Shown here one piece after another: positions 1 through 62,550 of a stretch of DNA of 62,550 nt; position 1 is the first letter of the stretch; the number at the start of each line of letters is the position of its first letter. The stretch comes from a virus. The notes beneath the pieces were generated by a model. It made no database searches, had not been told where the DNA came from, and saw nothing but the letters and a program-made list of their open reading frames with translations. The position numbers and the translations under genes were made by a program. The stretch lies in the IMG/VR virus record IMGVR_UViG_3300049793_000080, positions 1 through 62,550 of that record, one strand, 5' to 3'.

Positions 1-127
1 CGTTGGTCACGTTCAGCGCGATGGCCGTCACGCCGTCCTGGTGCATCTGCTTGCGCTCGGCCTCCACGCGGTCGGATTCGTCCTTGGCGTCTTTCTTGCG
101 CTTGTCCTCGGCGTCGAGTTGCTCCTG
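1..127. repeat. Left copy of 127-bp terminal direct repeat
   Basis: These 127 bases are identical to the last 127 bases of the window (62424-62550). Both copies lie inside the same reading frame of one minus-strand gene, so joining them restores an intact gene. This is the signature of a circular contig whose ends overlap by one assembly k-mer. A true physical terminal repeat of 127 bp is possible but less likely. Confidence 0.95.
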
Positions 128-478
128 AAACGGCGTCTCGTGCGCCTTCGCTTCCTCGATGTACTGCTTGGCGCGGACGTTGAATTGCCGCTGCATGGTG
201 CCGAGCATCTTGCTGCCCGTATCCTGCAGCGCCTGCATCGGGTAGCGCACGGACTCGCGCAGCTCGGTGCGGATGGCGGCGATCTGGTCATAGCCCTTCG
301 TGGTGCGCACATCGGCCACCACGCCGGTGTACTTCTTCGCGAGCGCGTGGCCCAGCGCGGCCAGCTCGGTAATCTTGGTGTTGGTCTTGGTCACCTCCAC
401 CAGTGCGGTGGTCACCTCGTCGGCCGGCGGCGCGGTCAGGTCCGTCGCGGCGGATTCTTCGGCAAGTTCAATGGGCAT
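1..478 (-). CDS. DUF1351-like coiled-coil protein, N-terminal part (continues at 62550)
   Basis: This is the first part of a 495-residue protein interrupted by the window ends. It starts at the ATG at 478 ([14 protein letters not shown]), overlaps the acyl carrier protein stop by 11 bases, and continues in frame into 61414-62550 once the 127-bp repeat is merged. The N-terminal part (a TNTKITELA motif, then [20 protein letters not shown]) resembles DUF1351, a phage family usually found beside recombination genes. The rest is a long charged coiled coil. Its direct neighbour downstream is a RecE-like nuclease. A role in recombination or DNA metabolism is inferred from position only. Confidence 0.85.
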
Positions 479-722
479 GGCTGCGCGCCTCCACGTACTG
501 AATCCACTCGCTGATCGGCGCCGGGGCCAGCTTGCCCGCGTCGCTGTCCGGGATTTCGATGTTGAACTCGTCCTCGATGGACATGACGGCCTCCACGGCG
601 TCGAGCGAATCGCCGCCGTAGTCGGACAGGGCGCGCTCGTCCTTGATGGTGGACGCATCCACGCTCAGCGAGAGCGCCAACGTGCTGCGCACGCGCGCCG
701 CGATGGTAGTTGCTTCTGACAT
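468..722 (-). CDS. Acyl carrier protein
   Basis: The 84-residue product has the size, acidity and helical layout of an acyl carrier protein. The phosphopantetheine site is clear: [19 protein letters not shown] around residue 39, where the Ser of DSL would carry the 4'-phosphopantetheine arm. It is followed by the acidic helix and [11 protein letters not shown] as in bacterial AcpP. A host phosphopantetheinyl transferase would have to activate it. No ketosynthase, acyltransferase or other lipid enzyme is visible in the genome, so its partner is probably a host enzyme. It is the third gene of the leftward operon, and its stop overlaps the next start. Confidence 0.9.
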
Positions 723-743: not shown

Positions 744-920
744 TCAGTAGCGAACGCGCGGGCCCACCAGCTTGTTGCGCGCGATCACGTTCTTGTTGAT
801 GTAGGGGCTGGTGGGGCGCATGCCCCAGGCCGAGATGGCGATGCACACAGAGATGGCGCCGCGCAGGGGCTGGGCGATGCTCTCCCACGTCTCGGCGGCC
901 GCGCGCAGCAGGCGCCTCAC
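744..920 (-). CDS. Small conserved-looking protein, unknown function
   Basis: This 58-residue ORF starts at a GTG that overlaps the TGA of the preceding gene (GTGA), which suggests translational coupling. It is basic at the N terminus (MRRLLRAAAETWESIAQPLR), has a short hydrophobic middle (AISVCIAISAWG), and ends in SPYINKNVIARNKLVGPRVRY. The hydrophobic stretch is marginal as a membrane segment. It lies immediately before the acyl carrier protein and could be co-expressed with it. The function is not recognised. Confidence 0.65.
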   Translation of the reverse strand: MRRLLRAAAETWESIAQPLRGAISVCIAISAWGMRPTSPYINKNVIARNKLVGPRVRY

Positions 921-1099
921 GCGAATTCACCCATCATGCCGGCGCAGCCCATGCCGGCGGCGCGCACGGCAGACACATCGCTGTCATCGCCCTCGTCCTC
1001 GTACTGCGGGCCGATGCGCTCCAGGCCGCTGCGCACCTCGTCGTCGTGGTGCTCGCGGATAGCTTCCTGTTCTTCGGGTGTGCGTTCGGGGTCGAACAT
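917..1099 (-). CDS. First gene of the leftward operon, small acidic protein
   Basis: The 60-residue product starts with MFDPERTPEEQEAIREHHDD. It is strongly acidic in the middle (YEDEGDDSD) and ends in a Gly/Met/Cys-rich tail (GMGCAGMMGEF). A good Shine-Dalgarno AAGGAG sits 5 bases upstream of the ATG. It is the first gene downstream of the leftward promoter at 1127-1155. No known family is recognised. Confidence 0.7.
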   Translation of the reverse strand: MFDPERTPEEQEAIREHHDDEVRSGLERIGPQYEDEGDDSDVSAVRAAGMGCAGMMGEFA

Positions 1100-1126
1100 G
1101 CTCGCTCCTTGTGGAATTAGGCCGCC

Positions 1127-1155
1127 ATGATGAACCATGCCAATCCGCGCGTCAA
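1127..1155 (-). promoter_or_regulatory. Leftward sigma70-type promoter
   Basis: On the minus strand TTGACG (1155-1150) is separated by exactly 17 bases from CATCAT (1132-1127). The predicted start is about 20-25 bases upstream of the ribosome binding site of the 1099-917 gene. The -35 matches consensus at 5 of 6 bases and the -10 at 4 of 6. It lies back to back with the rightward promoter at 1183-1211. Confidence 0.65.
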
Positions 1156-1162
1156 CAACTTT

Positions 1163-1207
1163 TGGCACATTTCGGCACCGGCTTGTTTTTGTGCCAGCAG
1201 CGTGGCA
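1163..1207. promoter_or_regulatory. Operator-like repeats between divergent promoters
   Basis: The half-site TGGCACA at 1163-1169 is mirrored exactly by TGTGCCA at 1190-1196. A tighter palindrome TGCCA-N6-TGGCA at 1192-1207 overlaps the -10 of the rightward promoter. Another TGCCA lies at 1138-1142 inside the leftward promoter spacer. This layout fits binding sites for the small HTH protein encoded at 1220, which would then regulate itself and the leftward operon. The assignment is by position only. Confidence 0.45.
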
Positions 1208-1211
1208 GAAT
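1183..1211 (+). promoter_or_regulatory. Rightward promoter, possibly giving a leaderless mRNA
   Basis: TTGTTT (1183-1188), 17 bases, CAGAAT (1206-1211). The expected transcription start is at about 1218-1220, on or next to the ATG at 1220, and there is no Shine-Dalgarno in the intervening CGCCCCCC. The regulator gene would therefore be translated from a leaderless message, as in lambda cI from PRM. Confidence 0.5.
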
Positions 1212-1219
1212 CGCCCCCC

Positions 1220-1405
1220 ATGAACAAAACCCAAATCCGCGCCCACTTCAAGACGATCAACGTGTCGCGATTCGGGGAGCGTCACGGCATCCCGCTGCGA
1301 ACACTGTGGCGCGTCAAGAAGCGAGGCGAATCCGTAAGTTCGCGCACACTCGCGCGCGTCTCCAGAGCCATCGCGGCAGACGTGGCCGCCGGGATCGTGG
1401 AATGA
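1220..1405 (+). CDS. Small helix-turn-helix regulator (Cro/CI-like)
   Basis: The 61-residue product is basic and carries a plausible helix-turn-helix: VSRFGERHGIPLRTLWRVKK (residues 16-35) followed by a second amphipathic helix, RTLARVSRAIAAD. It lacks the oligomerisation or cleavage domain of large CI repressors, so it is more Cro-like. It is the first rightward gene, next to palindromic repeats, and probably binds them. I chose ATG 1220 because the upstream in-frame extension crosses the promoter and operators. Its stop overlaps the next start. No integrase is present, so a lysis-lysogeny role is not assured. Confidence 0.65.
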   Translation: MNKTQIRAHFKTINVSRFGERHGIPLRTLWRVKKRGESVSSRTLARVSRAIAADVAAGIVE

Positions 1406-1620
1406 GCGCCGAGCCCGATGAATTCTGGCCCGGCACCACGGTGAAAAAGTCACTCCATACCGGCTTCACGGTGGGCTTTGGCGACAAGCCGCACGGGTAT
1501 GTGCCGGGCTCCGCGTCGACGCAGGGCAAGGGCGCGATCCGGGGCACGGCGGGCCTGCGCCAGCACCGCGCCTTCGGCTCCATCAACGGCACGATCAATT
1601 TCAAGAAGACGCCAGCATGA
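1402..1620 (+). CDS. Small hypothetical protein
   Basis: A 72-residue basic protein (MSAEPDEFWPGTTVKKS...), Gly-rich in the second half, whose ATG overlaps the regulator stop (ATGA). The coupling suggests co-expression with the HTH protein. No family is recognised. Confidence 0.6.
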   Translation: MSAEPDEFWPGTTVKKSLHTGFTVGFGDKPHGYVPGSASTQGKGAIRGTAGLRQHRAFGSINGTINFKKTPA

Positions 1621-1672
1621 GCAAGCGGCGGAAGTAGACGCGCCCTGCACAACGAGGACTTGAGGAGTGACG

Positions 1673-1996
1673 ATGAGATACCCGCATTCAACGGCGTACA
1701 CGCTGGACGTGATCAAGAACGGCGCGAGCACATTCAGGCCGGAATTCCTGGGCTGGGTGGCGAATAACTGGGGCGTGTGGCTGCGCTTTTGGGAGGAGTC
1801 GCAGAAGGTTCGGGCGACCGGGCGCACGCATTACAGCGGCCGCACCATTGGCGAATACATCCGCCACCAGACAGCGCTCAGCGAGCCCACGGGCGACTAC
1901 AAGGTGAACGATCACGCATGGCCGGACTGCTGCCGCCTGTTCATGGCGCTGGACCACACGGCCGAAGGCTTCTTTGAACTTCGCGGGAGAACATGA
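1673..1996 (+). CDS. Hypothetical early protein
   Basis: A 107-residue protein preceded by GAGGAG 6 bases before the ATG. It is rich in Trp and aromatics (FLGWVANNWGVWLRFWEES), which suggests a compact globular fold. The C-terminal HAWPDCCRLFMALDHTAEGFFELRG could be a small domain. An in-frame GTG six bases earlier is a weaker start. The function is unknown, and it begins a run of short early genes. Confidence 0.65.
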   Translation: MRYPHSTAYTLDVIKNGASTFRPEFLGWVANNWGVWLRFWEESQKVRATGRTHYSGRTIGEYIRHQTALSEPTGDYKVNDHAWPDCCRLFMALDHTAEGFFELRGRT

Positions 1997-2362
1997 ATGG
2001 CAATGGCACCGAAAATTGAGCCTCGACACGTGGCGAAGATCAAGGAGTGGATCGCTAACCTGGGGCCGTCGACCACGGCGGCGCGATACGTCGATGCGCT
2101 GCCGAACACCTACGCGATGGAGCTGCTCGTCGCGTATCGCATGGGCAGCGAATCGGCCGGCTGGATCTTGTGCAGGTACGAGCGCGAGGAGCAAGAGCAG
2201 GCCGCGTTCAACGCGGTGGCCAATGCGGTGCCGCCCAGCCTGGAGCTTGAGGTGCTCGGCTGGCGTCCGGGCTCGCGCCTCGACTGGGTGTGCATCCCAT
2301 CCTTGCCGGCCTCCAACGACCCGCTGGGTCAGTACGGCTACATGGGAGCGAAGTGGAAATGA
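1997..2362 (+). CDS. Hypothetical early protein
   Basis: This 121-residue protein starts immediately after the preceding stop, with GGGAGA upstream of the ATG. It contains a predicted helical N-terminal half (HVAKIKEWIANLGPSTTAAR) and ends in SNDPLGQYGYMGAKWK. No recognised domain. Confidence 0.65.
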   Translation: MAMAPKIEPRHVAKIKEWIANLGPSTTAARYVDALPNTYAMELLVAYRMGSESAGWILCRYEREEQEQAAFNAVANAVPPSLELEVLGWRPGSRLDWVCIPSLPASNDPLGQYGYMGAKWK

Positions 2363-2535
2363 GCAACCACGACGAACACGCGCAGATGGTCACCGACTGC
2401 GAGAACCGCGAGAGCAAGCTGACCGAGTGGGAGGCCGGCTTCATCCAGAGCTGCCGCGAGCGCATCGACGCTGGCCGCGCGTTGAGCCCGCCGATGGAAG
2501 AAACCCTCAACACGATATGGGACCGGATCACATGA
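2359..2535 (+). CDS. Small hypothetical protein
   Basis: A 58-residue, acidic, largely helical protein (MSNHDEHAQMVTDCENRESK...) with an ATGA overlap to the previous gene and another ATGA overlap to the next. The function is unknown. Confidence 0.6.
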   Translation: MSNHDEHAQMVTDCENRESKLTEWEAGFIQSCRERIDAGRALSPPMEETLNTIWDRIT

Positions 2536-2807
2536 CGAAACTACGCTGCTGGCCGGGCGCGCTGGCCGTCATCCTGCGCGGCGAATTGAAGGGCAAGACC
2601 ATCGAGTGCGATGCAGTCAGCTACCGCCCTGACGGCCGCGCCCAGTGGTCCTACAAAGGCGACCGCCTCTATGCCTATGTGGACGGAAAACTATGGGAGT
2701 GCGGCGACATCGCTGACGACAACCTGCGGCCCATCACGCCGCCGCCCACCGACAAGGTTCACGAAGAACCCATCACTCAACTGACACCCGAGGACGCAAC
2801 GACATGA
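2532..2807 (+). CDS. Hypothetical protein with SH3-like beta composition
   Basis: A 91-residue protein. The first 60 residues alternate beta-strand-like segments (LAVILRGELKGKTIECDAV, AQWSYKGDRLYAYVDGK) and are followed by a Pro/Thr-rich tail. The beta pattern resembles small SH3-like barrels, but this is only an impression. It is coupled by ATGA overlaps on both sides. Confidence 0.6.
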   Translation: MTKLRCWPGALAVILRGELKGKTIECDAVSYRPDGRAQWSYKGDRLYAYVDGKLWECGDIADDNLRPITPPPTDKVHEEPITQLTPEDATT

Positions 2808-3223
2808 GCACCACGATGAACCGCGCCGAGAGGCGCAAGGCATCCAAGCACATCGCCCGCGAGAGCAAGAAATTCGATGACGAGTTCGTGGTGGTGCCGA
2901 TCAGCGACGCCATCGCCCCGCCGAACCAGATCCGCGCGCTGCGCAACCGCAAGTTTCTGGTGCAGGAGTTCATGCCGGCCCTGGGCACCGAGGACATGGT
3001 GCTGTGCCGCCTATCCGTCAACATCATCGCCCTGGACGGCGACCAGTGGGTGGACGGCATCGGCTGGGAGGAGCTGCAGCACATCAAAAGCGCGCTCGGC
3101 TACGCGGACATGGAGGCGGTGGAGATTTACCCGCGTGATCGTGATGTCGTGAATGTTGCGGCTATTCGACACATTTTCGTGCTGCGCGGCCTGCTGCCGT
3201 TCACGTGGCGCCGCGGGGTATGA
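2804..3223 (+). CDS. Hypothetical protein (DUF7694-like)
   Basis: A 139-residue protein with a basic N-terminal helix (MNRAERRKASKHIARE) and a mixed alpha/beta body. The segment RNRKFLVQEFMPALGTEDM and the following strands resemble a small phage family annotated DUF7694, though I am not certain. It ends the first early gene block; a 141-base leader separates it from the replication genes. Confidence 0.6.
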   Translation: MSTTMNRAERRKASKHIARESKKFDDEFVVVPISDAIAPPNQIRALRNRKFLVQEFMPALGTEDMVLCRLSVNIIALDGDQWVDGIGWEELQHIKSALGYADMEAVEIYPRDRDVVNVAAIRHIFVLRGLLPFTWRRGV

Positions 3224-3308
3224 ACCCCATTGCGTTGTTCATTGTGGCTCAGCCATAATGAAAGCTGGAACCCCGGCTAGTGGAGGCTTGATCACCTCTG
3301 CGAAAAGC

Positions 3309-3361
3309 GTACTCCCCGCCTGCCGGACGTTCTTTCCTTGGGAGTGCGCGGAGTGCCTTTT
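3309..3361 (+). promoter_or_regulatory. Leader with two competing hairpins before the replication gene
   Basis: GTACTCCC (3309-3316) can pair with GGGAGTGC (3340-3347) or, alternatively, its first seven bases with GGAGTGC at 3350-3356, which is directly followed by CTTTTTAT. The second pairing gives a terminator-like hairpin plus U-tract just before the ATG at 3365. The two pairings exclude each other. The rest of 3224-3308 holds no ORF with a credible start. Confidence 0.35.
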
Positions 3362-3364
3362 TAT

Positions 3365-4201
3365 ATGAAACGTCCAGCGTTCCAGTTCTACACCAAGGAC
3401 TGGCAGACGAATCCGAAGCTGCGTCGGTGTTCACCGGGAGCGCGTGGCGTGTGGATGGACGTCCTGTGCCTGCTGCATCAGTCCGAGGAATACGGCGTCC
3501 TGCGCTGGCCCCTGCGCGAACTGGCCAATGCCGCCGGCTCCTCGATGGCCCACATGCGCGAGCTGATCGACAAGCGCGTTCTCAAGGGAAGCGACGAGCA
3601 CTGCGACCCCTACATTTACACCCCGCGTCACGCCGGAAAGCTGGGCGATCCGGTGGTGCTGCTCGAGGCCACGGATGACCCGTGCTGGTACTGCAGCCGA
3701 TTCCTAAGGGACGAGTGGGTGCGCGGCAGACGCGGCGCAGCGACCCGTTTTGACGAGGAAAATCAGCCACCGACCCGTTCACCAACCGGTCGGGTGGGTG
3801 AACGGCAGGGTGACGGCCCTCCTAACTCCTATTTGCATACTGCTACCTCCGGTATTCCTCAGGGCCCTGCGGGCCCTTCGGAGCCGACGACAAAAAGACC
3901 AAGCCGGAAATGCCCAGAGAGCTTCGAGGTGACTGCTGCACTCGTGGAGTGGGCGAACACCACGGTGCCGAGCATCCCGCCTGACGGCCTGCGCCGGGAA
4001 ACCGACAAGTTCCGCGATCACACGTTCGCGCACAGCATCACCGACTGGCAGGGAGCATGGCGCAACTGGATGCGGCGCGCGGCCGATGGGCGGTCCTATG
4101 CCGGGCACGGAACGGTGAACCGGCAGGAGGCTCAAGAAACCCGAAACCGCGCGGTCGTGGAGGCCGCTTTACGCAAAGGAAATGCCCATGAAGCCGAATG
4201 A
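3365..4201 (+). CDS. Replication initiation protein, O-like
   Basis: The 278-residue protein begins MKRPAFQFYTKDWQTNPKLR. This is the signature of phage replication proteins of the DUF1376/lambda O type, in which an N-terminal winged helix (about residues 1-90: RGVWMDVLCLLHQSEEYGVL...RELIDKRVLKG) binds the origin. A low-complexity linker (about 125-180) leads to a C-terminal helical domain that would contact the helicase loader or helicase. No ribosome binding site is obvious at ATG 3365; in-frame GTG 3353 and TTG 3338 are alternatives. The next gene looks like its partner, and no phage polymerase is present, so replication uses the host replisome. Confidence 0.7.
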   Translation: MKRPAFQFYTKDWQTNPKLRRCSPGARGVWMDVLCLLHQSEEYGVLRWPLRELANAAGSSMAHMRELIDKRVLKGSDEHCDPYIYTPRHAGKLGDPVVLLEATDDPCWYCSRFLRDEWVRGRRGAATRFDEENQPPTRSPTGRVGERQGDGPPNSYLHTATSGIPQGPAGPSEPTTKRPSRKCPESFEVTAALVEWANTTVPSIPPDGLRRETDKFRDHTFAHSITDWQGAWRNWMRRAADGRSYAGHGTVNRQEAQETRNRAVVEAALRKGNAHEAE

Positions 4202-4835
4202 AAAGGCCGAGCTTTTTTCGCTGCTCGGCGACGTCCACGCCTACTACCGGCAGGACGTGAGCGAGTTCACGCTGGAATTGTGGTGGGGCGCGTGCAAGCG
4301 CTTCGACCTGGAGCAAGTGCGCGAGGCGCTGACCGCGCATGCCATGGACCCGGAGCGCGGCCAGTTCGCGCCCAAGGTGGCCGATGTGGTGCGCGTGCTG
4401 GCGGGCACCACCACTGACCGCGCCGCGCTGGCCTGGGGCAAGGCGATGGACGCTATGCGACAGGTGGGCGCCTACCGCGATGTGGTGTTCGATGACCCCG
4501 CCATCCATGCCGTGGTCGAGGACATGGGCGGCTGGCCGAAGCTGTGTCGCACGGAGCTGAAGGAGCTGGGCTTTCGCCAGCACGAGTTCTGCGAGGCGCA
4601 CCGCGCGTACACCGGGCGCGGCAAGTTCGCCTACCCGACGCAACTGCAGGGCGACCGCGACCCGGACCACGAGTACACGCGCCGCGGCCTGTCCGCGCCG
4701 GTGCCCGTGTTGGTTGGGAGCCCGGCCGTGTGCGCACAGGTTCAGGCCGGAGGCGCGGTGGGCGGCAAGACGGCCATCAGTTTCAACGTCGCGGCGCTGC
4801 TGCCCGCACAACTTCGCAATGGAGGTGGAGAGTGA
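4188..4835 (+). CDS. Replication-associated protein, possible helicase loader (DUF6475-like)
   Basis: The 215-residue product follows the O-like gene, overlapping its end. The N-terminal region (LFSLLGDVHAYYRQDVSEF... RFDLEQVREALTAHAMDPER... FAPKVADVVRVL) is a helical domain common in phage genes placed after replication initiators and resembles lambda P-type loaders. The C-terminal third is loosely conserved. I prefer ATG 4188, because AAGGA lies 7 bases upstream; ATG 4182 is too close to it. The loader function is inferred from position and overall pattern, not from a catalytic motif. Confidence 0.6.
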   Translation: MKPNEKAELFSLLGDVHAYYRQDVSEFTLELWWGACKRFDLEQVREALTAHAMDPERGQFAPKVADVVRVLAGTTTDRAALAWGKAMDAMRQVGAYRDVVFDDPAIHAVVEDMGGWPKLCRTELKELGFRQHEFCEAHRAYTGRGKFAYPTQLQGDRDPDHEYTRRGLSAPVPVLVGSPAVCAQVQAGGAVGGKTAISFNVAALLPAQLRNGGGE

Positions 4836-5323
4836 TCGAGGACAAGCTGACGCTTCAATGGCTCCTGGACCGCGCCGAGGACGATGGCGGCGGGTGCTTG
4901 GTGTGGACTGGCTCGGCCAACAACGGCAAGGAGCCGCGCACGATGCTGGCTGGCCAGCGCATTCTGGTGCGCAAGGAAATCTGGCTGCTGGCGCACGAGG
5001 GCTGCACGCCGCCCGCCGGCGCATTCTTCGGGGTGAACTGCCGGACACCCAAGTGCGTGCACCCGGACCATGTGGTGGCCAGGACGCGCCAGCAGGCGCT
5101 CAAGGGCTGTGCGCGCAACCCGGACGCGGCGCTGCGGGCCACGCTGACCATTCGCGCCAAGTCCAAGCTGCAGCAGGATCGCGTCGACATGATCCTTGCG
5201 GACGAGCGGCCCGCCACGCAGGTGGCGCCGGAGCACGGCATCAGCGCGGCGATGGTGAATTTCATCCGGGCTGGCAAGATGCGCCGCCCGATTGGTGGCC
5301 TGTTCTCCGGGTTGATGCGATGA
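4832..5323 (+). CDS. HNH endonuclease-like protein with C-terminal HTH
   Basis: The 163-residue protein starts at a GTG overlapping the previous TGA. Residues about 15-80 follow the HNH homing-type pattern: GGCLVWTGSANNGK, then RKEIWLLAHEG, then VNCRTPKCVHPDHV. The CVHPDHV segment supplies the Cys/His pair and resembles the NxxHLxxG end of HNH nucleases. Residues 120-155 (QDRVDMILADERPATQVAPE... SAAMVNFIRAGK) form a helix-turn-helix. The nuclease-plus-HTH layout is typical of mobile phage endonucleases, yet the gene sits in a coupled replication operon. Confidence 0.65.
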   Translation: MIEDKLTLQWLLDRAEDDGGGCLVWTGSANNGKEPRTMLAGQRILVRKEIWLLAHEGCTPPAGAFFGVNCRTPKCVHPDHVVARTRQQALKGCARNPDAALRATLTIRAKSKLQQDRVDMILADERPATQVAPEHGISAAMVNFIRAGKMRRPIGGLFSGLMR

Positions 5324-5667
5324 AAGTCACCATCCCCATGATGACGAAGGGCTCCAATGCCCGCGAGCATCACATGCAGCGCTCCAGGCGCGTGAAGGCC
5401 GAGCGCAGCAACGTGGCCTGGATGCTGAACACGTGCAAGCTGGGCGCGCCGCCATTTCCGTGCACCGTCACACTGACGCGCCTGGGCCCGAACACAAAGC
5501 CGCTGGACGAGGGCGACAACCTGCCGCAAGCGCTCAAGGGGGCGCGCGATGAGGTGGCGCATTGGCTGGGCGTGGACGATGGCTCCAAGCTGGTGGCGTG
5601 GAAGTACGCGCAGCGCCGCGAGAAATATTGGGCGGTGGAAATCGAGATTGAATGGAGCGCGCCATGA
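5320..5667 (+). CDS. RusA-like Holliday junction resolvase
   Basis: The 115-residue protein has the RusA pattern. The acidic cluster DEGDNLPQALKGARDEVAHWLG (about residues 64-85, D-x-x-D-N-x5-K-x3-D) is followed by a DDGS segment and a basic C-terminal strand, YAQRREKYWAVEIEIEW. In RusA, equivalent Asp residues bind the metal ions that cleave four-way junctions. The length matches the family (about 120). It is coupled to its neighbours by ATGA overlaps and would serve recombination-dependent replication or packaging together with the RecE-like system on the other strand. Confidence 0.75.
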   Translation: MKVTIPMMTKGSNAREHHMQRSRRVKAERSNVAWMLNTCKLGAPPFPCTVTLTRLGPNTKPLDEGDNLPQALKGARDEVAHWLGVDDGSKLVAWKYAQRREKYWAVEIEIEWSAP

Positions 5668-6110
5668 CGCAAGACGACGCCATTGTTTCCGGCGCCACCG
5701 CTGGCCTGCGCATGCTGGCAGACGGCACCATCCGGCTGAGCGTGGACTTCGAGCCGGGCGACGCGCAGGCCGCCATGCAACTGTTCGGCAAGATCGGCCA
5801 GCCGCTGGGCGTGGCCGCGCTCAAGGTGGGGCACGCGGCGGCAGGCGCGAAGAAGGACGACCCGCGCGGGCCGCTGTGCATGGAGGCGATCAGCCTGTGC
5901 GCCAACCAGAAGTTTCAGGAGTGGATAGCGCACGCCGCAGACGCCGGATTCAACTGGAAGCCGACCGCCGACGCCGCCAAAGGGTTCATTCTGAGCCGGT
6001 GCGGCGTCGAATCTCGCAAGGAGCTGGACGAGAGCCACATTGCGGCGAACCTGTTCCGCAACATCACGCGCGCGTTTCAAGAGTGGGTTCGCAACGTGGA
6101 CCGGGCATGA
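5664..6110 (+). CDS. Conserved-looking early protein, unknown function
   Basis: The 148-residue protein starts at the ATG overlapping the resolvase stop. The first half looks beta-rich (LRMLADGTIRLSVDFEPGDA followed by a helix AAMQLFGKIG). The C-terminal half is helical, with SLCANQKFQEWI and a GFILSRCGVESRKELD segment reminiscent of small DNA-binding or recombination accessory proteins of other phages. No domain name can be supported. Confidence 0.6.
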   Translation: MTQDDAIVSGATAGLRMLADGTIRLSVDFEPGDAQAAMQLFGKIGQPLGVAALKVGHAAAGAKKDDPRGPLCMEAISLCANQKFQEWIAHAADAGFNWKPTADAAKGFILSRCGVESRKELDESHIAANLFRNITRAFQEWVRNVDRA

Positions 6111-6586
6111 AAAATTCTGGCTTCAAGAAAGCGGTGTACGTGCCGCCCGCGCCGGCGCCGATCCGCCCGCTCGAGAGCCCGCCGAACTACGGCCGCAACA
6201 CCGCCATGGCCCCGGTGCCCAAACGCCCAGCGCTGCGCAATCAGTACCTGCGCGATCTGGCGCGAGGCGAGGAGTGCTCGGTGAAGATCGGCGGCGCCTG
6301 CGCGTGCCAACCCGAGACGGTGGTGTGGGCGCACACGAACACCTTGGCCGACCAGAAGGGCTTGGGCTACAAGGCGAGCGACGAACAGGGGTTCTTCGCA
6401 GGCCACGAGTGCCACACCGCAATCGACGCTCGGAAGCTGAGCCCCGAGGCGGTGGATCTGTTGGTAATCACGGCGCAACTGCGCACGCGCGAGCGCCTGC
6501 GCGAAATCGCGGACAGCTATTCGGCTCCGCAGTGGAAGCAGAAGGCGGCCATGTGGGCGCTGACCAACCTGGAGAGAAAGCCATGA
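6107..6586 (+). CDS. DUF1364 (YbcO-like) nuclease-type protein
   Basis: The 159-residue protein carries the DUF1364 signature at residues 42-105. It runs NQYLRDLARGEECSVKIGGAC, then ETVVWAHTN, then GLGYKASDEQGFFAGHECH and TAID. The Cys and His residues (C52, C58, C60, H70, H101, C102 and H103 approximately) fit a zinc-binding beta-beta-alpha-metal nuclease fold like lambdoid YbcO. It sits two genes after the RusA-like resolvase, mirroring the nin-type clusters of lambdoid phages. Confidence 0.75.
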   Translation: MKNSGFKKAVYVPPAPAPIRPLESPPNYGRNTAMAPVPKRPALRNQYLRDLARGEECSVKIGGACACQPETVVWAHTNTLADQKGLGYKASDEQGFFAGHECHTAIDARKLSPEAVDLLVITAQLRTRERLREIADSYSAPQWKQKAAMWALTNLERKP

Positions 6587-6903
6587 GCGCATTTCGCCCC
6601 GTCGAAGCCTACGCCACCAGCATGCTCGTGATGCTGGGATCGCGTCTGGAGGAGCACCAGGAGAAGTTCAGCGGCAAGAAGCCGCGCTGCTTTGTCCTGC
6701 ATCGCCCCAGCATTGACGCGCTGGACGCGGAGTGCATGGACCGCTTCGGGATTCTGGAGCGCGGAGAGTTTCCGACCGGGCCCTTCGGGACAGCGCGCAC
6801 GCACCGCGCCTTCATGGGGGTGCTCATCGGCCTATGCGCAGACACCTCACCCACCTGCGAAGACATGATGATCGACTGCAACAACGAGCCGCAGCCGCTT
6901 TGA
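6583..6903 (+). CDS. Hypothetical protein
   Basis: A 106-residue alpha/beta protein (MSAFRPVEAYATSMLVMLGS...) coupled by ATGA to the DUF1364 gene. It has a central PRCFVLHRPSIDALDAE segment and two Cys near the C terminus. No family is recognised. Confidence 0.6.
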   Translation: MSAFRPVEAYATSMLVMLGSRLEEHQEKFSGKKPRCFVLHRPSIDALDAECMDRFGILERGEFPTGPFGTARTHRAFMGVLIGLCADTSPTCEDMMIDCNNEPQPL

Positions 6904-6947
6904 AAAATCTGCCGGCGGATATTCACCGGCGCCACTGGAGAGAAGCT

Positions 6948-7253
6948 ATGTCGAAGATCCTGCCCACCGTGGGCCGAAACCTGTACTACCAGCCGGGCCC
7001 GGGGGAGATACTGGAAATCATCCAGCACCCGCCGAAGGACGACGAGGACAAATCGCAGCCGCTGCACGCGCACATCCTGTACGTGCACGACGAGCGCCAC
7101 GTCACGCTGGAGGTGGTCGACCACATCGGCAACCGTCACGCGCGCGGCGACGTGGTGCTGTGCCAGGACGGCGAGGTGCCCGACGAGGGCGGTGAATACT
7201 GCTACTGGATGCCGTATCAGACCTCGACAGCGAAAGAGGCCAAGCAATCATGA
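6948..7253 (+). CDS. Hypothetical protein, beta-rich
   Basis: A 101-residue protein with GGAGAG upstream of ATG 6948. The N terminus (GRNLYYQPGPGEI) and the strands HAHILYVHDERHVTLEVVD and MPYQTST are typical of small beta-barrel phage proteins seen next to Gp49-family genes. It is coupled by ATGA to the Gp49-RyR gene and may work with it. Confidence 0.6.
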   Translation: MSKILPTVGRNLYYQPGPGEILEIIQHPPKDDEDKSQPLHAHILYVHDERHVTLEVVDHIGNRHARGDVVLCQDGEVPDEGGEYCYWMPYQTSTAKEAKQS

Positions 7254-7942
7254 ACAACATCGAATCCCCCAACAACACCGACTCCAGCATCGAGCAGGAG
7301 ATTCAGGCCAAGGGCAAGACGGCGCCGCGCGTCACGCAGGCCGACTTCGACGCGAACATCATCAGCAGCGAAATCGTCAAGCATGTGTCGCCGTCAGGGC
7401 AGATCCTGCGTTGGGCCGTCATCACCACCGCCAGCGGCTTTGCCGTGACCGGCGACCCCTCGGCCGCAGTGTCGGCTGAGAACGACGACGCCAGCATCGG
7501 CGAACGCATCGCCATCGACAACGCGCGCAACAAGTTGTGGCCGATGATGGGCTACGAGCTCAAGCAGCGGCTGCACGAAGTCAGCAACGGCAATCTGGTG
7601 CGCCGCATCGCCCGCATGTGCCATGAAGTCAACAAGGCGTACTGCGAGGCGCTGGGCGACTTCAGCCAGCCGGCATGGGAAGACGCGCCGCAATGGCAGA
7701 AGGACAGCGCGATCACCGGCGTGTGCCTGCACATGATCAACCCGGACGCTGGCCCGCAGGCATCGCACGAGAGCTGGATGGCGCAGAAGGTGGACGACGG
7801 CTGGGTGTACGGTGCGGTGAAACGCCCGGAGGCCAAGGAGCACCCTTGCATCGTGCCGTTTGCCGATCTGCCGACCGCACAGCAGGCCAAGGACTTCATC
7901 TTCCGCGCCGTGGTGCACGCGGCTGTGGCTGACGCGCCATGA
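7250..7942 (+). CDS. Gp49-family protein fused to a RyR domain
   Basis: The 230-residue protein has two parts. Residues about 25-95 (VTQADFDANIISSEIV... LRWAVITTASGFAVTGD) match the phage Gp49-like family. Residues about 120-225 form a RyR domain: CHEVNKAYCEALGDFSQPAW, CLHMINPD, HESWMAQKVDDGWVYGAVK, HPCIVPFADLP and a final QAKDFIFRAVVH helix. In animals RyR domains occur in calcium channels. Prokaryotic and phage copies are proposed to bind nucleotide-derived ligands. The next gene is a Tad2 homologue, so the pair may deal with host nucleotide-signal immunity; that link is inference. Confidence 0.8.
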   Translation: MNNIESPNNTDSSIEQEIQAKGKTAPRVTQADFDANIISSEIVKHVSPSGQILRWAVITTASGFAVTGDPSAAVSAENDDASIGERIAIDNARNKLWPMMGYELKQRLHEVSNGNLVRRIARMCHEVNKAYCEALGDFSQPAWEDAPQWQKDSAITGVCLHMINPDAGPQASHESWMAQKVDDGWVYGAVKRPEAKEHPCIVPFADLPTAQQAKDFIFRAVVHAAVADAP

Positions 7943-8205
7943 GCTTCGCTGTTCTCACCTTCCCCGAGGCCATGACGCTGGCGCTTGCCACCGGCGCCAA
8001 GGTGGCCCGCCAGGGCTGGAACGGCAAGGGGCAGCACGTTCGCATGACGCAGGGCACCCAGCGCTTTCGATTTACGCTGGAGGACTTCGTGGAGTACGTG
8101 GACGCGGACCCGTTCATGGTGCTGTGCAACGCGCAGGGGCGCTACGTGCCGTGGGCGCCAAGCCAGGGGGATTTGGTGGCGGTCGATTGGATGGAACTGC
8201 CATGA
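7939..8205 (+). CDS. tad2: Tad2 family protein (DUF2829), putative anti-Thoeris
   Basis: The 88-residue protein matches the DUF2829/Tad2 pattern. It has FPEAMTLALATGAKVARQGW and NGKGQHVRM at the N terminus, a DADPFMVLCNAQGRYVPWAP segment, and the closing SQGDLVAVDWMEL. Tad2 proteins sequester the cyclic ADP-ribose-type signal made by Thoeris ThsB and so block that defence. The Trp-Asn-Gly-Lys-Gly motif and the C-terminal SQxDxxAxDW motif, both diagnostic, are intact. It is coupled to the RyR-domain gene by ATGA. The family match is confident; the exact ligand cannot be told from sequence. Confidence 0.8.
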   Translation: MSFAVLTFPEAMTLALATGAKVARQGWNGKGQHVRMTQGTQRFRFTLEDFVEYVDADPFMVLCNAQGRYVPWAPSQGDLVAVDWMELP

Positions 8206-8495
8206 GCGACGGCGCCTTCTATGCGATGGACCAACGACCGCGGTGGAGGCGCCTGCTTTCGCGTCTCTTCCCGCGCGATGCGTTCCAGGGGCTGGACGCG
8301 CCGACTCCCGGCATGTGCGTTGGCGAGATTTACACGCACGTCGAGGTGGATCTCGGTTGGCGTGATCTTCTGCGGCTGCTGGTGAGTGGGCGCGCGCACA
8401 TCGAGGTTCGCCTGGAGACGGACGCGCTGGTGAACAAGACGCGCAGCAGGGCGATGTTCACGGCGCTGCCGCCGAAGTGGCTGGAGCGGCAATGA
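8202..8495 (+). CDS. Hypothetical protein
   Basis: A 97-residue protein with a basic N-terminal third (RPRWRRLLSRLFPRD) and a beta-like second half (GEIYTHVEVDLGWRDLLRLL, AHIEVRLETDA). It is coupled on both sides, to the Tad2 gene and to the Tat-signal gene. The function is unknown. Confidence 0.55.
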   Translation: MSDGAFYAMDQRPRWRRLLSRLFPRDAFQGLDAPTPGMCVGEIYTHVEVDLGWRDLLRLLVSGRAHIEVRLETDALVNKTRSRAMFTALPPKWLERQ

Positions 8496-8845
8496 ACCGG
8501 CGCGGCTTTCTCGGCGGGCTCGCTGGATGCTTTGCAGCGGCGGCCGCGCCAGGCATCCTCGCGCAAGGCGTCATCATGCCGGTGCGCCGCATCGCGTTGC
8601 CCAGCGACACGATTGTGTTTCGGCGCTGGCTTCCTTACGGCAGCGAGGACCACTTTGTTGATGCGCTGCGGTACGGGCTCGGCGTGCGGGAGATGGAAGT
8701 CGGGAGGATAGATAATTTCCGGTTCATCGATGATCGCGAGGCGCCCAATGATCTGCGTAGCATCGAGTACATGAAGAATGCCATGTGGCGCAACATGATG
8801 GACAACATGACGATGGCCATCCCAGCGATTTGGCGCCCGCGATAG
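8492..8845 (+). CDS. Exported protein with twin-arginine-type signal
   Basis: The 117-residue protein begins MNRRGFLGGLAGCFAAAAAP followed by GILAQ. The consecutive arginines plus GFLGG match the Tat consensus (S/T-R-R-x-F-L-K). A hydrophobic stretch and an Ala-rich cleavage site follow, near residue 24-28. The mature part (IALPSDTIVFRRWLPYGSED... and a Met-rich MKNAMWRNMMDNMTMAIP) is not recognised. Export of a folded protein by Tat is unusual for a phage; Sec export is also possible. Confidence 0.6.
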   Translation: MNRRGFLGGLAGCFAAAAAPGILAQGVIMPVRRIALPSDTIVFRRWLPYGSEDHFVDALRYGLGVREMEVGRIDNFRFIDDREAPNDLRSIEYMKNAMWRNMMDNMTMAIPAIWRPR

Positions 8846-8853
8846 ACTGCAAC

Positions 8854-8979
8854 ATGGAAACCGGGCCGGGCCTGCGCATTAGCACCGTGGGCACGGAGCA
8901 TCCTCACTGGACTAAACCCTGCTTCATGGGGGCCGGCCCGGCGACCTATTGCGAATACTGGCGCAGTCTGTCACAATGA
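8854..8979 (+). CDS. Doubtful small ORF
   Basis: A 41-codon ORF (METGPGLRISTVGTEHPHW...) in the gap after the Tat-signal gene. It has no ribosome binding site, and it overlaps the promoter-like sequence at 8949-8977. It is listed because nothing else occupies the stretch. The longer form, from an upstream alternative start inside the previous gene, is no better. Confidence 0.2.
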   Translation: METGPGLRISTVGTEHPHWTKPCFMGAGPATYCEYWRSLSQ

Positions 8980-8981
8980 CA
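8949..8981 (+). promoter_or_regulatory. Promoter with palindromic operator
   Basis: TTGCGA (8949-8954), 17 bases, CACAAT (8972-8977), 37 bases upstream of the secreted-protein gene at 9014. The palindrome TGTCA-CAA-TGACA at 8969-8981 covers the -10 box, so a repressor bound there would block the promoter. This palindrome differs from the TGCCA/TGGCA sites at 1138-1207. Confidence 0.45.
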
Positions 8982-9013
8982 CCGCTTCGATTTTGAAGTG
9001 ACAGGAGAACCGA

Positions 9014-9376: not shown

Positions 9377-9403
9377 GCGGGCGCTAACAACGCGATTCAG
9401 CAA

Positions 9404-9424: not shown

Positions 9425-9445
9425 CATTGGTGTGCCAAATTGTGC

Positions 9446-9472: not shown

Positions 9473-9507
9473 ATGCAGTCTCCTTTAACCACTTTTAGGA
9501 CTCTGAA

Positions 9508-32640: not shown

Positions 32641-33027
32641 ATGGTCTACATGCCCGACTTCTATCAGGTGCTGGTGCGCTGCGGCATGAAGCCGCCGCCC
32701 TATGAGCAGTGGCGCGCGCACTACTCCCACAACAGCGACCTGTGGCCGATCACCGACCGCGACACGCAGCGCCTGATCGGCGGCCTGCTGTTCAAGGGCC
32801 ATCTGGTGCACATCGCCATCGAGCCCGAGTGGCAGGGCCGTTGGATCAGCAAGACACTGCTGCGCGCCGAGCGCGAGTGGACCCCGCAGGCCGACGTCAT
32901 CGCCGCCATCCCGCCCGACAATGCGAAGGCCATCGAGTTGGTGAGGCGCCTGGGGTGGAAGCACCGTGGCCAAGAAGAAGGTTTTGAAATCTACGCGAAG
33001 GAGAAGGCACCATGCCCGCAGCCCTGA
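32641..33027 (+). CDS. GNAT-like (acyltransferase fold) virion-region protein
   Basis: The 128-residue protein shows the GNAT layout. It has strands around RLIGGLLFKGHLVHIAIEPE, then WQGRWISKTLLRAEREW in the place of the acetyl-CoA loop (usually Q/RxxGxG/A; here QGRWIS, so the P-loop is imperfect). It closes with DVIAAIPPDNAKAIELVRRL-GWK, as in acetyltransferases. T7 gp13, an internal virion protein, has a related fold, so it may be structural rather than catalytic. It overlaps the next gene by 16 bases. Confidence 0.65.
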   Translation: MVYMPDFYQVLVRCGMKPPPYEQWRAHYSHNSDLWPITDRDTQRLIGGLLFKGHLVHIAIEPEWQGRWISKTLLRAEREWTPQADVIAAIPPDNAKAIELVRRLGWKHRGQEEGFEIYAKEKAPCPQP

Positions 33028-57791: not shown

Positions 57792-58703
57792 TTAGGTCGC
57801 GAACATCGGCACGCTGGTGCCGTCTTCAATTTCCGCACGCACCGCCTCGAAGGCGTGCTCCAGGCTCTTGTGCGGGCGCACCAGCTCGTACCACAGCATC
57901 AGGCCGCCAGCCGACACGCGGTAGCGCAGGTTCGCCGCGATGACGTAGGGCGCGCCGCCCCTGAACACCGGGATGGTCACCTCGAATTGCGACGGCAGGG
58001 CCAGCGATCCGGCCGGGGTCTGCTGCTCGGTGTTCTCGGCGTAGGCGAACTGCACATCGCCGTTCTCCAGGCGCCGGGCGCTGGCGAACTTCACATCCTT
58101 CTTCGCCTCGAAGGAGCGCACCGCGGCCAGCATCGCGCCGCTGGCCGGCAGCGTGATGTCCAGCAGGTTGTCCTCGATGAACTGGATGAAGTCGGCGTGC
58201 TTCATGCCGCGCTTGGCGTCGACGCTTGCCGCGTGCTGGCTGTTGCCGTGCCAGCGCATCCATTCCTCGGACAGCGGGCAGTCGTAGGTGGCGGTGAAGT
58301 CGCCCCAGCCCGGCGCACCATCGGCGCCGCTGCTGCTCGAGCCATCTGCGACGGGCGGCGCGGGCTGCACGTTCGCCGCGTGCCCGTTGAAGATCGCTTT
58401 GAAGTCCGTGCTGAATTCCTTCGCGTAGATCACCGTCTCCGGCGTCTTGTTGCGGTTCACCCAGTCGATGAACGACGCGGCCGTGGTCAGTGTGACATTG
58501 CCCTTCTTGCGGTTCGGAGCGAGCTGGAACTTTTCCAGGTCGACGTTCACCTGCTCGAGCCGCGAGCCGGCGGGCACGACGATGCCCATGAGCTTGACGG
58601 AGCCCTGCTCGCCCAGGGTGTGCGGGGTGCCCAGCGCTTGGCCGGCGTTGATGGCCGACTGGATGTTATCGACGGCAACGGTGGGGGTTGTGGTTGGAGT
58701 CAT
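57792..58703 (-). CDS. DUF2303 family protein (YfdQ-like)
   Basis: The 303-residue protein matches the DUF2303/YfdQ pattern. It has KLMGIVVPAGSRLEQVNVDL, LTTAASFIDWVNRNKTPETV, FKAIFNGHAA, and WGDFTATYDCPLSEEWMRWH. HADFIQFIEDNLLDITLPAS and FEVTIPVFRGGAPYVIAANL complete it. YfdQ-like genes occur in many phages beside recombination functions; the biochemical role is not known. ATG 58703 is chosen because the longer ORF has a shadow-like Arg-rich start. Confidence 0.85.
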   Translation of the reverse strand: MTPTTTPTVAVDNIQSAINAGQALGTPHTLGEQGSVKLMGIVVPAGSRLEQVNVDLEKFQLAPNRKKGNVTLTTAASFIDWVNRNKTPETVIYAKEFSTDFKAIFNGHAANVQPAPPVADGSSSSGADGAPGWGDFTATYDCPLSEEWMRWHGNSQHAASVDAKRGMKHADFIQFIEDNLLDITLPASGAMLAAVRSFEAKKDVKFASARRLENGDVQFAYAENTEQQTPAGSLALPSQFEVTIPVFRGGAPYVIAANLRYRVSAGGLMLWYELVRPHKSLEHAFEAVRAEIEDGTSVPMFAT

Positions 58704-59189: not shown

Positions 59190-59498
59190 TTAAAACTTCG
59201 GCAGATTGGGCGCGGGCACGACGCGCGGCGCCGGGCGCAGCATTGGGTCTTGCATGAACCGCTCCTCCACATCTTGGCAGTGGACGGCGAGATTCCACGC
59301 CAGCGCGGTGTGGAGGTCTTCGCCCGACAAGCCTTGCGCCTCGGCCCAGCAATAGACGTTGCGCAGGATCGGGCTCGACATGGCGAGGTTGGCATAGTGG
59401 CCGCCGTCCAGCAGCGGCCGCCCGGTACGTGCCGAGCGCATCAATTCCTGCCGCATCTCGCGCGGATCGGTCAGGGCCAGGGCTTCGGAGCGGTTCAT
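59190..59498 (-). CDS. Hypothetical helical protein
   Basis: A 102-residue protein starting at the ATG that overlaps the previous TGA. It is helical (PREMRQELMRSARTGRPLLD, GEDLHTALAWNLAVHCQDVE) with a Pro-rich end (LRPAPRVVPAPNLPKF). It is part of the recombination cluster. The function is unknown. Confidence 0.6.
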   Translation of the reverse strand: MNRSEALALTDPREMRQELMRSARTGRPLLDGGHYANLAMSSPILRNVYCWAEAQGLSGEDLHTALAWNLAVHCQDVEERFMQDPMLRPAPRVVPAPNLPKF

Positions 59499-60577
59499 GG
59501 GTTGAACTTCTTCAAGCACTCGTCGTAGTGCTCGCCCAAGTTCATGCGCACGGCATCGTCCGGGTAGGCGGCGGCCGTGATCCAGCCAGCCAGGACGTCG
59601 AGCGTGTCCTTGTTCTTGGCCTTCTTCATTTTTTCGATCAGCGCCTCGGGTGTCGGCGGCTTGGGCGCACCGGCGTCGGCCACGGGTGACCCCGCGAGGT
59701 CGGTGGTCGGGCCCGGCGCGGGCGTCGGCGCCGGCGTGGCCGCGGGCGTGCCGCGCTTCTCCAGATCCGCGAGCGAGGTAGCCTCTCCCGCCTTTGGCGC
59801 GGGCGGCGGCATATCGAACCACTCGGCGGGCGTGCTCATGTCGTCTCGCAGGCTCACGTAGATGCGCTTCAACTGCACCATCTGCGCTGGCGTGATGGCA
59901 TCGAGCCGGCGCTGGATGCGAGTCTCGATGTGCTCCTTGGTCACGCCCCAGCGGTCGAACGTCTCGAGTAGCTTCTTCTGCGCCTCGGGCGATACATCGG
60001 CATGGGTGTTGAGCGTGGTGCCGGCCTGCTTCATGGCCATCTCGATCACGTCGCCCGGGATGTTGGCCAGGATGCACTGGCGCAGGCGGCGCTGTGCCTG
60101 ATTGGCGCACAACTCGTAAATGTCGCGCTCGTCCTTGAGCTTGTAGCCGCCGCCCTTGGTGTCGCGCCAGTGCGGGACCATGAACTGCAGCGCCTTGCGG
60201 TTGGTCGATTGCAGGTCGATGCAATACGCCTGCACCACGCTGTACGGGATGCCCTTGGCGTCGATGCCCCGATCCACCTCTTTCCAGCCGGTATCCAGGT
60301 TGCCCCACTCCTGCGCGATGGCCTCGGCCGCGCGAATGCTCGGCCCGGTGATGTCGGTGCCGCCGCGGGAGAACTGGTACTGGCTGACTTCGGCCAGCGT
60401 CGGGCGGGCGAATGCGTTCAGGATGCGGTCCATGCACTCGGCCTGCACGCGCGGGAACTTCTTCGCCATCATGACCATAGCGAATACTTCGGTTTCCTCG
60501 CGCTTTTCCATTGCCTGCACGGCCCCGGTGGGACGCGCAGCCACGGCGAACATGTTGGTGATTTTGTCGTCTTCCAT
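59495..60577 (-). CDS. Recombination-associated protein, candidate annealing partner
   Basis: The 360-residue protein begins MEDDKITNMFAVAARPTGAV, then EETEVFAMVMMAKKFPR, and continues with FARPTLAEVSQYQFSRGGTD and SIRAAEAIAQEWGNLDTGWK. LCANQAQRRLRQCILANIPG comes later. The C-terminal 110 residues are Ala/Pro-rich and probably flexible. It is directly downstream of a RecE-like nuclease, the place where a RecT/Red-beta single-strand annealing protein normally lies. It does not resemble RecT by eye. The annealing role is therefore inferred from position. Confidence 0.6.
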   Translation of the reverse strand: MEDDKITNMFAVAARPTGAVQAMEKREETEVFAMVMMAKKFPRVQAECMDRILNAFARPTLAEVSQYQFSRGGTDITGPSIRAAEAIAQEWGNLDTGWKEVDRGIDAKGIPYSVVQAYCIDLQSTNRKALQFMVPHWRDTKGGGYKLKDERDIYELCANQAQRRLRQCILANIPGDVIEMAMKQAGTTLNTHADVSPEAQKKLLETFDRWGVTKEHIETRIQRRLDAITPAQMVQLKRIYVSLRDDMSTPAEWFDMPPPAPKAGEATSLADLEKRGTPAATPAPTPAPGPTTDLAGSPVADAGAPKPPTPEALIEKMKKAKNKDTLDVLAGWITAAAYPDDAVRMNLGEHYDECLKKFNP

Positions 60578-60583
60578 TGCAAG

Positions 60584-61417
60584 TTACTCCAGGTGATAAG
60601 GGGGAACGACGATGGTTTTCAGGTCATCGCCGTGGCCGGGCCACACGTTGGTGGTGCGGCATTCGTGGTAGGTGTCCAGCGCGCGCCGCACCTTGCGCTG
60701 TGCCGATGCGCGCGCCTCGGGCGCAAGTTCCATCTGCGCCGTGACGTGCGGGTACTCGGCCTCGATCACAATGAAGATGAAGCCGAGCACCTCCATGCCG
60801 CTGGCGCGCGCGTACACGTCGCTGTAGAGCACGTCCTGGATGTCATAGCCCATGGAAACCACCTGCACGCGGCCGAAGTCTTCCTCGTCGCAGCTCTTGT
60901 AGGTCTTCACGTCCGCCAGGATCACCTGCTTGTCGTTGACCGGGTACACGTGGTCCGGGCGCACCTTGATCTTCACGCCGGTGGTCGGGTCGATGGCGCA
61001 TGCGGTCACCTGCCCGAAGCCCTTGGAGAACAGCCGGGCAATGTCGGGCACGCGCATGGCGCCGGCGCGGGCGGCCTTCGCGCGCTTGAGCGCATCGGCA
61101 TCGACGGCCTGGGCGCCAGCCGCGACGCACTCTTTCTTGAACGCCTTCCATTCGTTGGTGTTCTTGTTGACGTCCGGCCCGACGAGATAGCGCGTGTTGA
61201 GCGCGGCCGGCTCGGTCATCGCGCAGTCCACCATGTTGCCGAACAGGCGCGCGGCCGATTCGGTGTCGGACTCCGGCGGGCAGGCCGGGTCCAGGTACTG
61301 CCCGTAGTAGTAGGCTGGCGAGCGCAGCATGGCCATGAGCCCGCTGCGCCCAACCGCTGACCGATCTGCGTGGTACTCGTCGTTGCTGATGTTGAAGTGA
61401 ATGCCGGGTTCCATCAT
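60584..61417 (-). CDS. RecE-like PD-(D/E)XK exonuclease (DUF3799)
   Basis: The 277-residue protein resembles the C-terminal nuclease domain of RecE. It has GIHFNISNDEYHADRSAVGR, then GRSGLMAMLRSPAYYYGQY, and AARLFGNMVDCAMTEPAALN. The catalytic core is KIKVRPDHVYPVNDKQVILA, then DVKTYKS (the D...DVKT motif) and YDIQDVLYSDVYA. It would resect double-strand ends for annealing-based recombination. ATG 61417 overlaps the previous stop, with AAGGAG 4 bases upstream; the adjacent ATG at 61414 is an alternative. Confidence 0.85.
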   Translation of the reverse strand: MMEPGIHFNISNDEYHADRSAVGRSGLMAMLRSPAYYYGQYLDPACPPESDTESAARLFGNMVDCAMTEPAALNTRYLVGPDVNKNTNEWKAFKKECVAAGAQAVDADALKRAKAARAGAMRVPDIARLFSKGFGQVTACAIDPTTGVKIKVRPDHVYPVNDKQVILADVKTYKSCDEEDFGRVQVVSMGYDIQDVLYSDVYARASGMEVLGFIFIVIEAEYPHVTAQMELAPEARASAQRKVRRALDTYHECRTTNVWPGHGDDLKTIVVPPYHLE

Positions 61418-62550
61418 GCGTCTCCTTCGATTTCGTTGATCAATGTCTCCACCTCGCCGGCCAGCTCATTGCCGTCCTCGGCCAGTGCCGCGCACGCGCG
61501 CACGAGCATGTCGAACATGCGCGGCGCGGCGGCCTGCATGCGCACCAGCTGCTGCGTCTCGGCCTGCTTGCGCTCCGTCTCGATGCGCCGGGCTTCGGCT
61601 TCCTCGGCCTCGCGCTGCTCGCGGGCGACGGCTTCGCGCTGGGCGGCGCCAACAGCATCCAGCACGGCGAGGTGCAGCGCCAGGGCTTCCTGCAGCCGGT
61701 CGCCGTAATACTCCTCGGTCAGCGGTTCATCGTTCAGCGCCTCGATGCGGTCAACAAAGAATTGCGCGCTGGCATCCGGCTCCCAGTTGCCATAGGCCGC
61801 GAGGTTGTTCAGGTTCACCTGGATCTGCGCGGCGACAGCTTGCTTGCGCTCCTCGGCTTCGCGGGCCACGGCCGCATCGAACACCGCGCGCAGCCGCTCG
61901 AGGGCTCCGGCCCTGGCGGCTTCGGCCTCGGCCACCCTGTCGTCGTACTGGCCGTGGTAGAGCAACGTATCTTGCAGCGTGCGAAGATATATCTCGATGT
62001 CCGCCGATGCTGCCATGTAGCTGAAAGCCGCGCCGTAGTTGGCCAGCGCGTCGATGCGCGCCTGCACCGCCTCCTTGCGCTCTTGAATCGCGCGCTCCTG
62101 CTGCTCGCGCTGCGCGTTCAGCGCTAGCTGCTGCAGCGCCATCTCGTTGCGCTGGCGCTGCAACTCGGCGGCCTGTTCGCCCAGCAGCTTCTGCTGGGCG
62201 GCCTGCTGCTCGCGAAACTGCGCTTGCCGCGTGCGCTCCTGCTCCAGCTCCATGCGTTCAGCCGCATCTATCCGTTCGGCCACCAGCATGCCATTGAGCT
62301 GGCGCAGCGCTTCGTCCTTGGCCTGCTGCGCCTGCCCTTGGTACTCCTCCCACTGTTCGTCAATGGCGATGGCTTCCACCGCCGCGATGCGGCCTTCCAG
62401 CCCGGCCACGTCCAGCCCCATGGCGTTGGTCACGTTCAGCGCGATGGCCGTCACGCCGTCCTGGTGCATCTGCTTGCGCTCGGCCTCCACGCGGTCGGAT
62501 TCGTCCTTGGCGTCTTTCTTGCGCTTGTCCTCGGCGTCGAGTTGCTCCTG
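61414..62550 (-). CDS. DUF1351-like coiled-coil protein, main part (N terminus at 478-1)
   Basis: This is the remainder of the 495-residue protein that starts at 478. The in-frame GTG near 62490 is not the true start, because the frame stays open to the window end and across the join. The part here is a long coiled coil (QQAKDEALRQLNGMLVAERI, QKLLGEQAAELQRQRNEMAL) with two repeated segments having LNNLAAYG/LANYGAAF. It ends before an acidic helix (LAGEVETLINEIEGDA). It is coupled to the RecE-like gene. The function is unknown, possibly linked to recombination. Confidence 0.85.
   Translation of the reverse strand, partial: QEQLDAEDKRKKDAKDESDRVEAERKQMHQDGVTAIALNVTNAMGLDVAGLEGRIAAVEAIAIDEQWEEYQGQAQQAKDEALRQLNGMLVAERIDAAERMELEQERTRQAQFREQQAAQQKLLGEQAAELQRQRNEMALQQLALNAQREQQERAIQERKEAVQARIDALANYGAAFSYMAASADIEIYLRTLQDTLLYHGQYDDRVAEAEAARAGALERLRAVFDAAVAREAEERKQAVAAQIQVNLNNLAAYGNWEPDASAQFFVDRIEALNDEPLTEEYYGDRLQEALALHLAVLDAVGAAQREAVAREQREAEEAEARRIETERKQAETQQLVRMQAAAPRMFDMLVRACAALAEDGNELAGEVETLINEIEGDA
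62424..62550. repeat. Right copy of 127-bp terminal direct repeat
   Basis: Exact match to bases 1-127, beginning CGTTGGTCAC. Removing one copy gives a circle of about 62,423 bp and restores a continuous minus-strand gene of 496 codons including stop. Confidence 0.95.

Follow-up and report, generated by a model that had tools for sequence, protein, structure and literature searches.

A solo AcpP-like carrier protein in a leftward phage operon with recombination genes, and its possible role as a docking mimic

Acyl carrier proteins (ACPs) encoded by phages have been published as auxiliary metabolic genes (PMC5463345, PMC8224337, PMC11705849, PMC10152775), with examples from Erythrobacter phage R6L, Vibrio phage R16F, Alteromonas phage R22Y, roseobacter prophages and PhiSH19. 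Their authors either regard them as auxiliary metabolic genes or call their role unclear, and the label of lipid-synthesis gene is routinely applied without a functional test. Members of the phage family PHROG 5934 (Erythrobacter phages ZS04 and R6L; Motura, pf16, Bajun, R22Y and R16F) are solo genes without fatty acid synthesis (FAS) genes, and several of them sit in early or replication/recombination regions. The Ackermannviridae proteins (ViI, CBA120, LIMEstone1, AG3) share a related fold, acidic residues in helix II and the ACP name. Here, we describe an ACP gene in a 62,550-nt stretch of viral DNA (IMG/VR record IMGVR_UViG_3300049793_000080, in full; hereafter the window), which adds a new sequence of low identity to the phage ACPs already published.

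The gene is located on the minus strand (468..722) and encodes an 84-aa protein of the AcpP type, as judged from profile and fold. It starts with ATG, with an RBS-like GGAG site ~11 nt upstream (5′), and the G+C content of its three codon positions (0.61/0.47/0.87) resembles that of the terminase gene, a sure phage gene (0.65/0.41/0.90), while overlapping ORFs differ; codon phase and RBS-like site thus support a real gene. The protein matches Pfam PF00550 (PP-binding; E 8.1e-12, 45.7 bits, cut-off 20.8) and PHROG 5934 'acyl carrier protein' (E 1.1e-12), and a PDB sequence search returned 92 matches at E ≤ 1e-3, the top ones being ACPs. Its attachment serine is present in a GGDSLD motif, as Ser39 (Ser36 in E. 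coli AcpP), at the N-terminal end of helix II. An AlphaFold model (mean pLDDT 91.5) has four helices (7–19, 39–53, 59–65 and 70–81), with Ser39 capping helix II, and a Foldseek search with this model found E. coli and P. putida AcpP (TM 0.8–0.9) as well as AcpP structures in complex with FabZ, FabD, FabH, AcpS and MukBEF. As modelled, the protein has the four-helix carrier fold, and profile, motif and model agree with the initial annotation, which had proposed an ACP with an intact DSL motif and flanking helices. Against the NCBI equivalog model for AcpP (TIGR00517) it scores 57.2, short of the cut-off of 70.45, and is thus by sequence AcpP-like, yet no orthologue under this equivalog rule. 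The gene encodes a genuine AcpP-type carrier protein, which most likely derives from a bacterial AcpP and has been retained as an accessory early gene.

Bacterial AcpP of type II FAS and the window ACP have the fold, the DSL serine and the acidic helix-II docking face in common. The window ACP is ~36% identical to AcpP in E. coli structures. The best value in our tree set, where it has a branch length of 0.98, is 46%, with a Burkholderiales AcpP; local identity to the phage proteins of PHROG 5934 is ~30–45%. The window ACP differs from bacterial AcpP in its diverged C-terminal part and in standing alone in a phage early operon, with no fab cluster. Residues kept relative to E. coli AcpP are D35, S36, L37, D38, E41, V43, M44, E47, E53, I54, P55 and D56; E48 is replaced by Asp, and the docking residues are otherwise kept or conservatively swapped. 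In AcpP complexes, the face that holds these residues is the one recognised by AcpS and the FAS enzymes.

A direct terminal repeat of 127 nt (1–127 = 62424–62550) shows that the assembly is a complete circular phage genome of 62,423 bp (G+C 65.6%), so that missing partner genes are not an effect of a fragmentary sequence. The genome encodes an SU10-type portal and adaptor, a Terminase_6 large subunit and a giant 4418-aa gene (35976–49232) with matches to Eco57I, N6_Mtase, ResIII and SNF2. With ~62 kb and one protein of more than 4000 aa combining methylase and helicase-like domains, the phage looks like a Bcep22-like podophage, Bcep22 itself being a podophage with such a giant protein; this sets the window ACP apart from the PHROG 5934 examples above. 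A nucleotide match for the structural region (26000–50000) was sought in the phages collection and none was found. The nearest terminases among bacterial genomes include those of the Burkholderiales Xenophilus, Rhodoferax and Pelomonas, which makes a Burkholderiales host likely.

Across this complete genome, searches for a ketosynthase, a phosphopantetheinyl transferase (PPTase), a polyketide synthase, FabD/FabG or a lipid acyltransferase gave nothing besides one GNAT-fold gene, and the ACPS domain (PF01648) is absent from the whole record. These profile searches bear out the initial annotation in that no lipid or polyketide partner gene is present. Its view that an ACP without partners is peculiar does not hold, as 42 of 44 ACP-bearing phage records are without a ketosynthase (present in two) and 41 of 45 without an ACPS-type transferase (domain found in four, three of them above the cut-off). 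Solo ACPs are therefore the rule among phages, and the window ACP, with its PHROG 5934 match and no FAS partner, fits it. An all-against-all BLAST of the flanks of phage ACPs yielded no universal immediate-neighbour partner gene; only the recombination module recurs. The GNAT-fold gene (phrog_1249; 32641..33027, plus strand) is the sole acyltransferase-like gene of the genome and had been put forward as a partner of the ACP. We dropped this candidate on position and strand: it lies in the virion block, on the opposite strand and in a separate transcription unit. Since the complete genome supplies no partner, the window ACP must act with host proteins.

How it would do so is a matter of graded likelihood. 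Our favoured reading, held tentatively and at somewhat below an even chance, sees the window ACP as an AcpP mimic, modified by the host, that acts by docking on the ACP-binding proteins of the host, with lipid supply being less likely. Speaking for it are the docking residues kept in the window ACP, the matches of its model to partner-bound AcpP structures, and the lack of a ketosynthase or PPTase in this genome and in most ACP-bearing phages. Host AcpS would attach phosphopantetheine, and the acidic helix II would then dock in trans on host AcpP-binding proteins, candidates being phospholipid acyltransferases, FAS enzymes, SpoT, IscS, SMC-like or other proteins. Early in infection, the ACP would in this way compete with or rewire the host ACP hub instead of supplying a lipid carrier. 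There are bacterial precedents: apo-ACP strongly inhibits glycerol-3-phosphate acyltransferase and halts growth (work cited in PMC3896788), MukB is stimulated by apo- and holo-AcpP alike (PMC8602292), and IscS is bound by ACP (PMC13343975). SpoT does not bind apo-ACP (PMC3896788).

A plain auxiliary metabolic gene, whose extra holo-ACP boosts or diverts the making of fatty acids or phospholipids in the infected host cell, is how PMC8224337 and PMC11705849 read phage acpP. The intact DSL motif and AcpS footprint of the window ACP agree with this, as does its nearest bacterial match being a Burkholderiales AcpP. We nevertheless consider it unlikely, though deserving of serious attention. AcpP is already present at ~100 µM in E. 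coli (PMC8602292), so the carrier is unlikely to be limiting, which favours the docking mimic; furthermore, no ketosynthase accompanies the ACP here or in most phage records, and the TIGR00517 score places it far from AcpP. On the other side, the serine kept by the window ACP means that a carrier function may be important here, and a true FAS carrier would need the docking residues as well.

Serine and docking residues come apart when phage ACPs are compared. In a short alignment of 45 non-redundant phage ACPs (E. coli AcpP numbering), E47 is invariant (100%), D35 is acidic in 100% and E41 is kept in 43 of 45 (96%), while the carrier serine is kept in 91% and replaced in four (by R, A, L or D); the homologues were collected with an AcpP-like query, so this Ser-less share is a lower bound from uneven sampling. 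All seven bacterial AcpPs compared have the serine. Ackermannviridae ACPs carry Glu or Asp at its position in all eight sampled, across several genera (e.g. L143:3842-4165, L202:301-612 and L207:292-564), whereas the window ACP keeps Ser; all eight retain D35, D38, E41, E47 and D56. On the tree, the serine state changes at least five times, and the sister pairs L109/L115 and L123/L120 have related operons with and without it. L115 is without E41 as well as the serine, and its ACP may be decaying. Taken together, the phage ACP counts, the Ackermannviridae proteins and the repeated changes of the serine indicate that phage ACPs hold on to the docking residues no less strictly than to the carrier residue.

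With Glu or Asp at the serine site, no phosphopantetheinylation of the Ackermannviridae proteins is expected, and the name 'acyl carrier protein' looks misleading; the substitution suggests a phosphomimetic-like residue. An earlier report of Ser-less phage ACPs was not found in the literature, in which subscription journals were thinly covered; the proteomic table of PMC10892097 lists a 'putative acyl carrier protein' for the Vi01-like phage Sajous1. Base hypermodification was considered as a role for the Ackermannviridae ACPs and rejected, as PMC5977210 makes no link to an ACP.

The initial annotation had also offered titration of the host PPTase (or of CoA), a reading to which the AcpS-contacting residues kept in the window ACP would lend some credit. 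We regard it as very improbable, given the vast abundance of host AcpP (PMC8602292), beside which another substrate could scarcely compete, and the loss of the PPTase target serine in several related phage ACPs. It had further named substitution of the DSL serine in close relatives as evidence against a carrier: the nearest phage relatives, G008 and L085, retain the serine, and it is in distant ones that it has been lost. As the Ser-less proteins share only ~24–31% identity with the window ACP, their role need not hold for it. As a class, phage ACPs could be AcpP docking mimics of the host hub and not metabolic carriers, with a dispensable, repeatedly lost phosphopantetheine serine and a conserved helix-II face, delivered early with recombination genes in some temperate-type phages; the window ACP would then be a serine-retaining member. 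We offer this generalisation as a possibility on the doubtful side. Solo layout, an early recombination operon and repeated serine loss with the docking acids kept all argue for protein docking, and, if true, such a role would change how these genes are routinely annotated: an ACP matching the Ser-less LIMEstone1 protein is present in 269 phage records.

The window ACP is the third gene of a leftward operon on the minus strand. Upstream of the operon lies a sigma-70-like promoter match (TTGACG-17-CATCAT; 1127..1155; a consensus match only, one found versus 0.1 expected). It is followed by a 60-aa ORF (917..1099) and an overlapping 58-aa ORF (744..920), both without a family, the ACP, and a 495-aa gene of a family without assigned function (phrog_16469/1376) that spans the circular junction (5′ part 1..478, 3′ part 61414..62550). 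Subsequent genes encode a RecE/exonuclease VIII-like protein (phrog_412; 60584..61417), to which we attribute the Pfam DUF3799 match of the block, a phrog_3657 protein (59495..60577) at the spot where a ssDNA-annealing protein is expected, a phrog_204 protein and a 303-aa phrog_210 protein (57792..58703), to which the DUF2303 match is attributed. Judging from this layout, the ACP gene is probably expressed early, as part of a recombination operon. Opposite the promoter match, a small rightward gene (1220–1405) has the look of a Cro-type regulator.

This arrangement raises the possibility that the ACP is an accessory of the recombination module itself, binding either a product of its own operon (such as the 495-aa protein or the exonuclease) or, in the host, an SMC-like protein or one of DNA repair, in a place like that of lambda Gam or P22 Abc. 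The ATG of the 495-aa gene sits inside the 3′ end of the ACP gene (11-nt overlap), the start of the RecE gene follows that of the ACP by ~1.7 kb, and AcpP binds MukB (PMC8602292). In other phages, YqaJ exonuclease occurs in nine of 44 ACP-bearing records, and eight of these nine have it on the ACP strand at a distance of 2.2–4.2 kb. The annealing-type neighbours of phage ACPs vary: Erf (G008, L109, L115, L117), RecT (L120), Sak4 (L119) and, in the window and four other phages (L108, L113, L119, L123), phrog_3657; L108 also has an SSB. The 495-aa protein recurs in exonuclease/annealing operons (G003, G005, G008, G062) and may itself be a recombination accessory. However, six of the eight YqaJ-linked records (G055, G057, G058, G062–G064) share genes and are not independent, leaving ~4 independent lineages, the window included, and early operons accumulate unrelated cargo; for these two reasons the link is suggestive only. 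Many phage ACPs also lie away from recombinases, the ACP occupies different operon positions in the window and in G008, and G003 carries the 495-aa gene without an ACP. Altogether, we rate a recombination accessory as improbable.

Among near-complete relatives of the window phage, two of ~9 have the ACP; of the ~8 recruited by terminase (56–63 kb), G008 is the only one. The gene is thus accessory in this phage group. In G008 it is found in a similar operon, with Erf, YqaJ, a homologue of the 495-aa protein and a DUF2303-like gene, where it precedes a putative integrase gene (the DUF2303-like and integrase genes were both assigned by the look of their sequence); G003 has the 495-aa homologue together with an Erf-like ORF. 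A back-translated scan of viral contigs found no close relatives of the window ACP, and its placement in the tree is without support. Its absence from most near-complete relatives and its long branch would both be expected of neutral or transient cargo taken from a bacterial genome. We give this a slim chance: motif and docking surface have stayed intact through high divergence, as have codon phase and start signals, which implies selection, and ACPs recur across many unrelated phages.

Two records met along the way concern labels. 'Acinetobacter phage MD-2021a' (L141, CAKLQH020000007.1) was rejected as a phage, since its fabD-fabG-acpP and housekeeping genes are those of a bacterial chromosome. 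The record L180/L146 (NZ_CACSJA010000044.1) goes under the name Pantoea sp. 18069. Its AcpP is almost the same as those of Comamonadaceae, and it contains a terminase of the window phage's type; this assembly is probably mislabelled or mixed. Elsewhere in the window, a plus-strand ORF (7939–8205) is a probable Tad2-like (anti-Thoeris) gene; PF11195 matches within 744–17672 (E 6.6e-19), and the ORF was assigned by the look of its sequence. Lastly, the leftward gene block contains a direct repeat of 48 nt (53243–53290 and 53756–53803; 92% identical) at a spacing of 513 nt.
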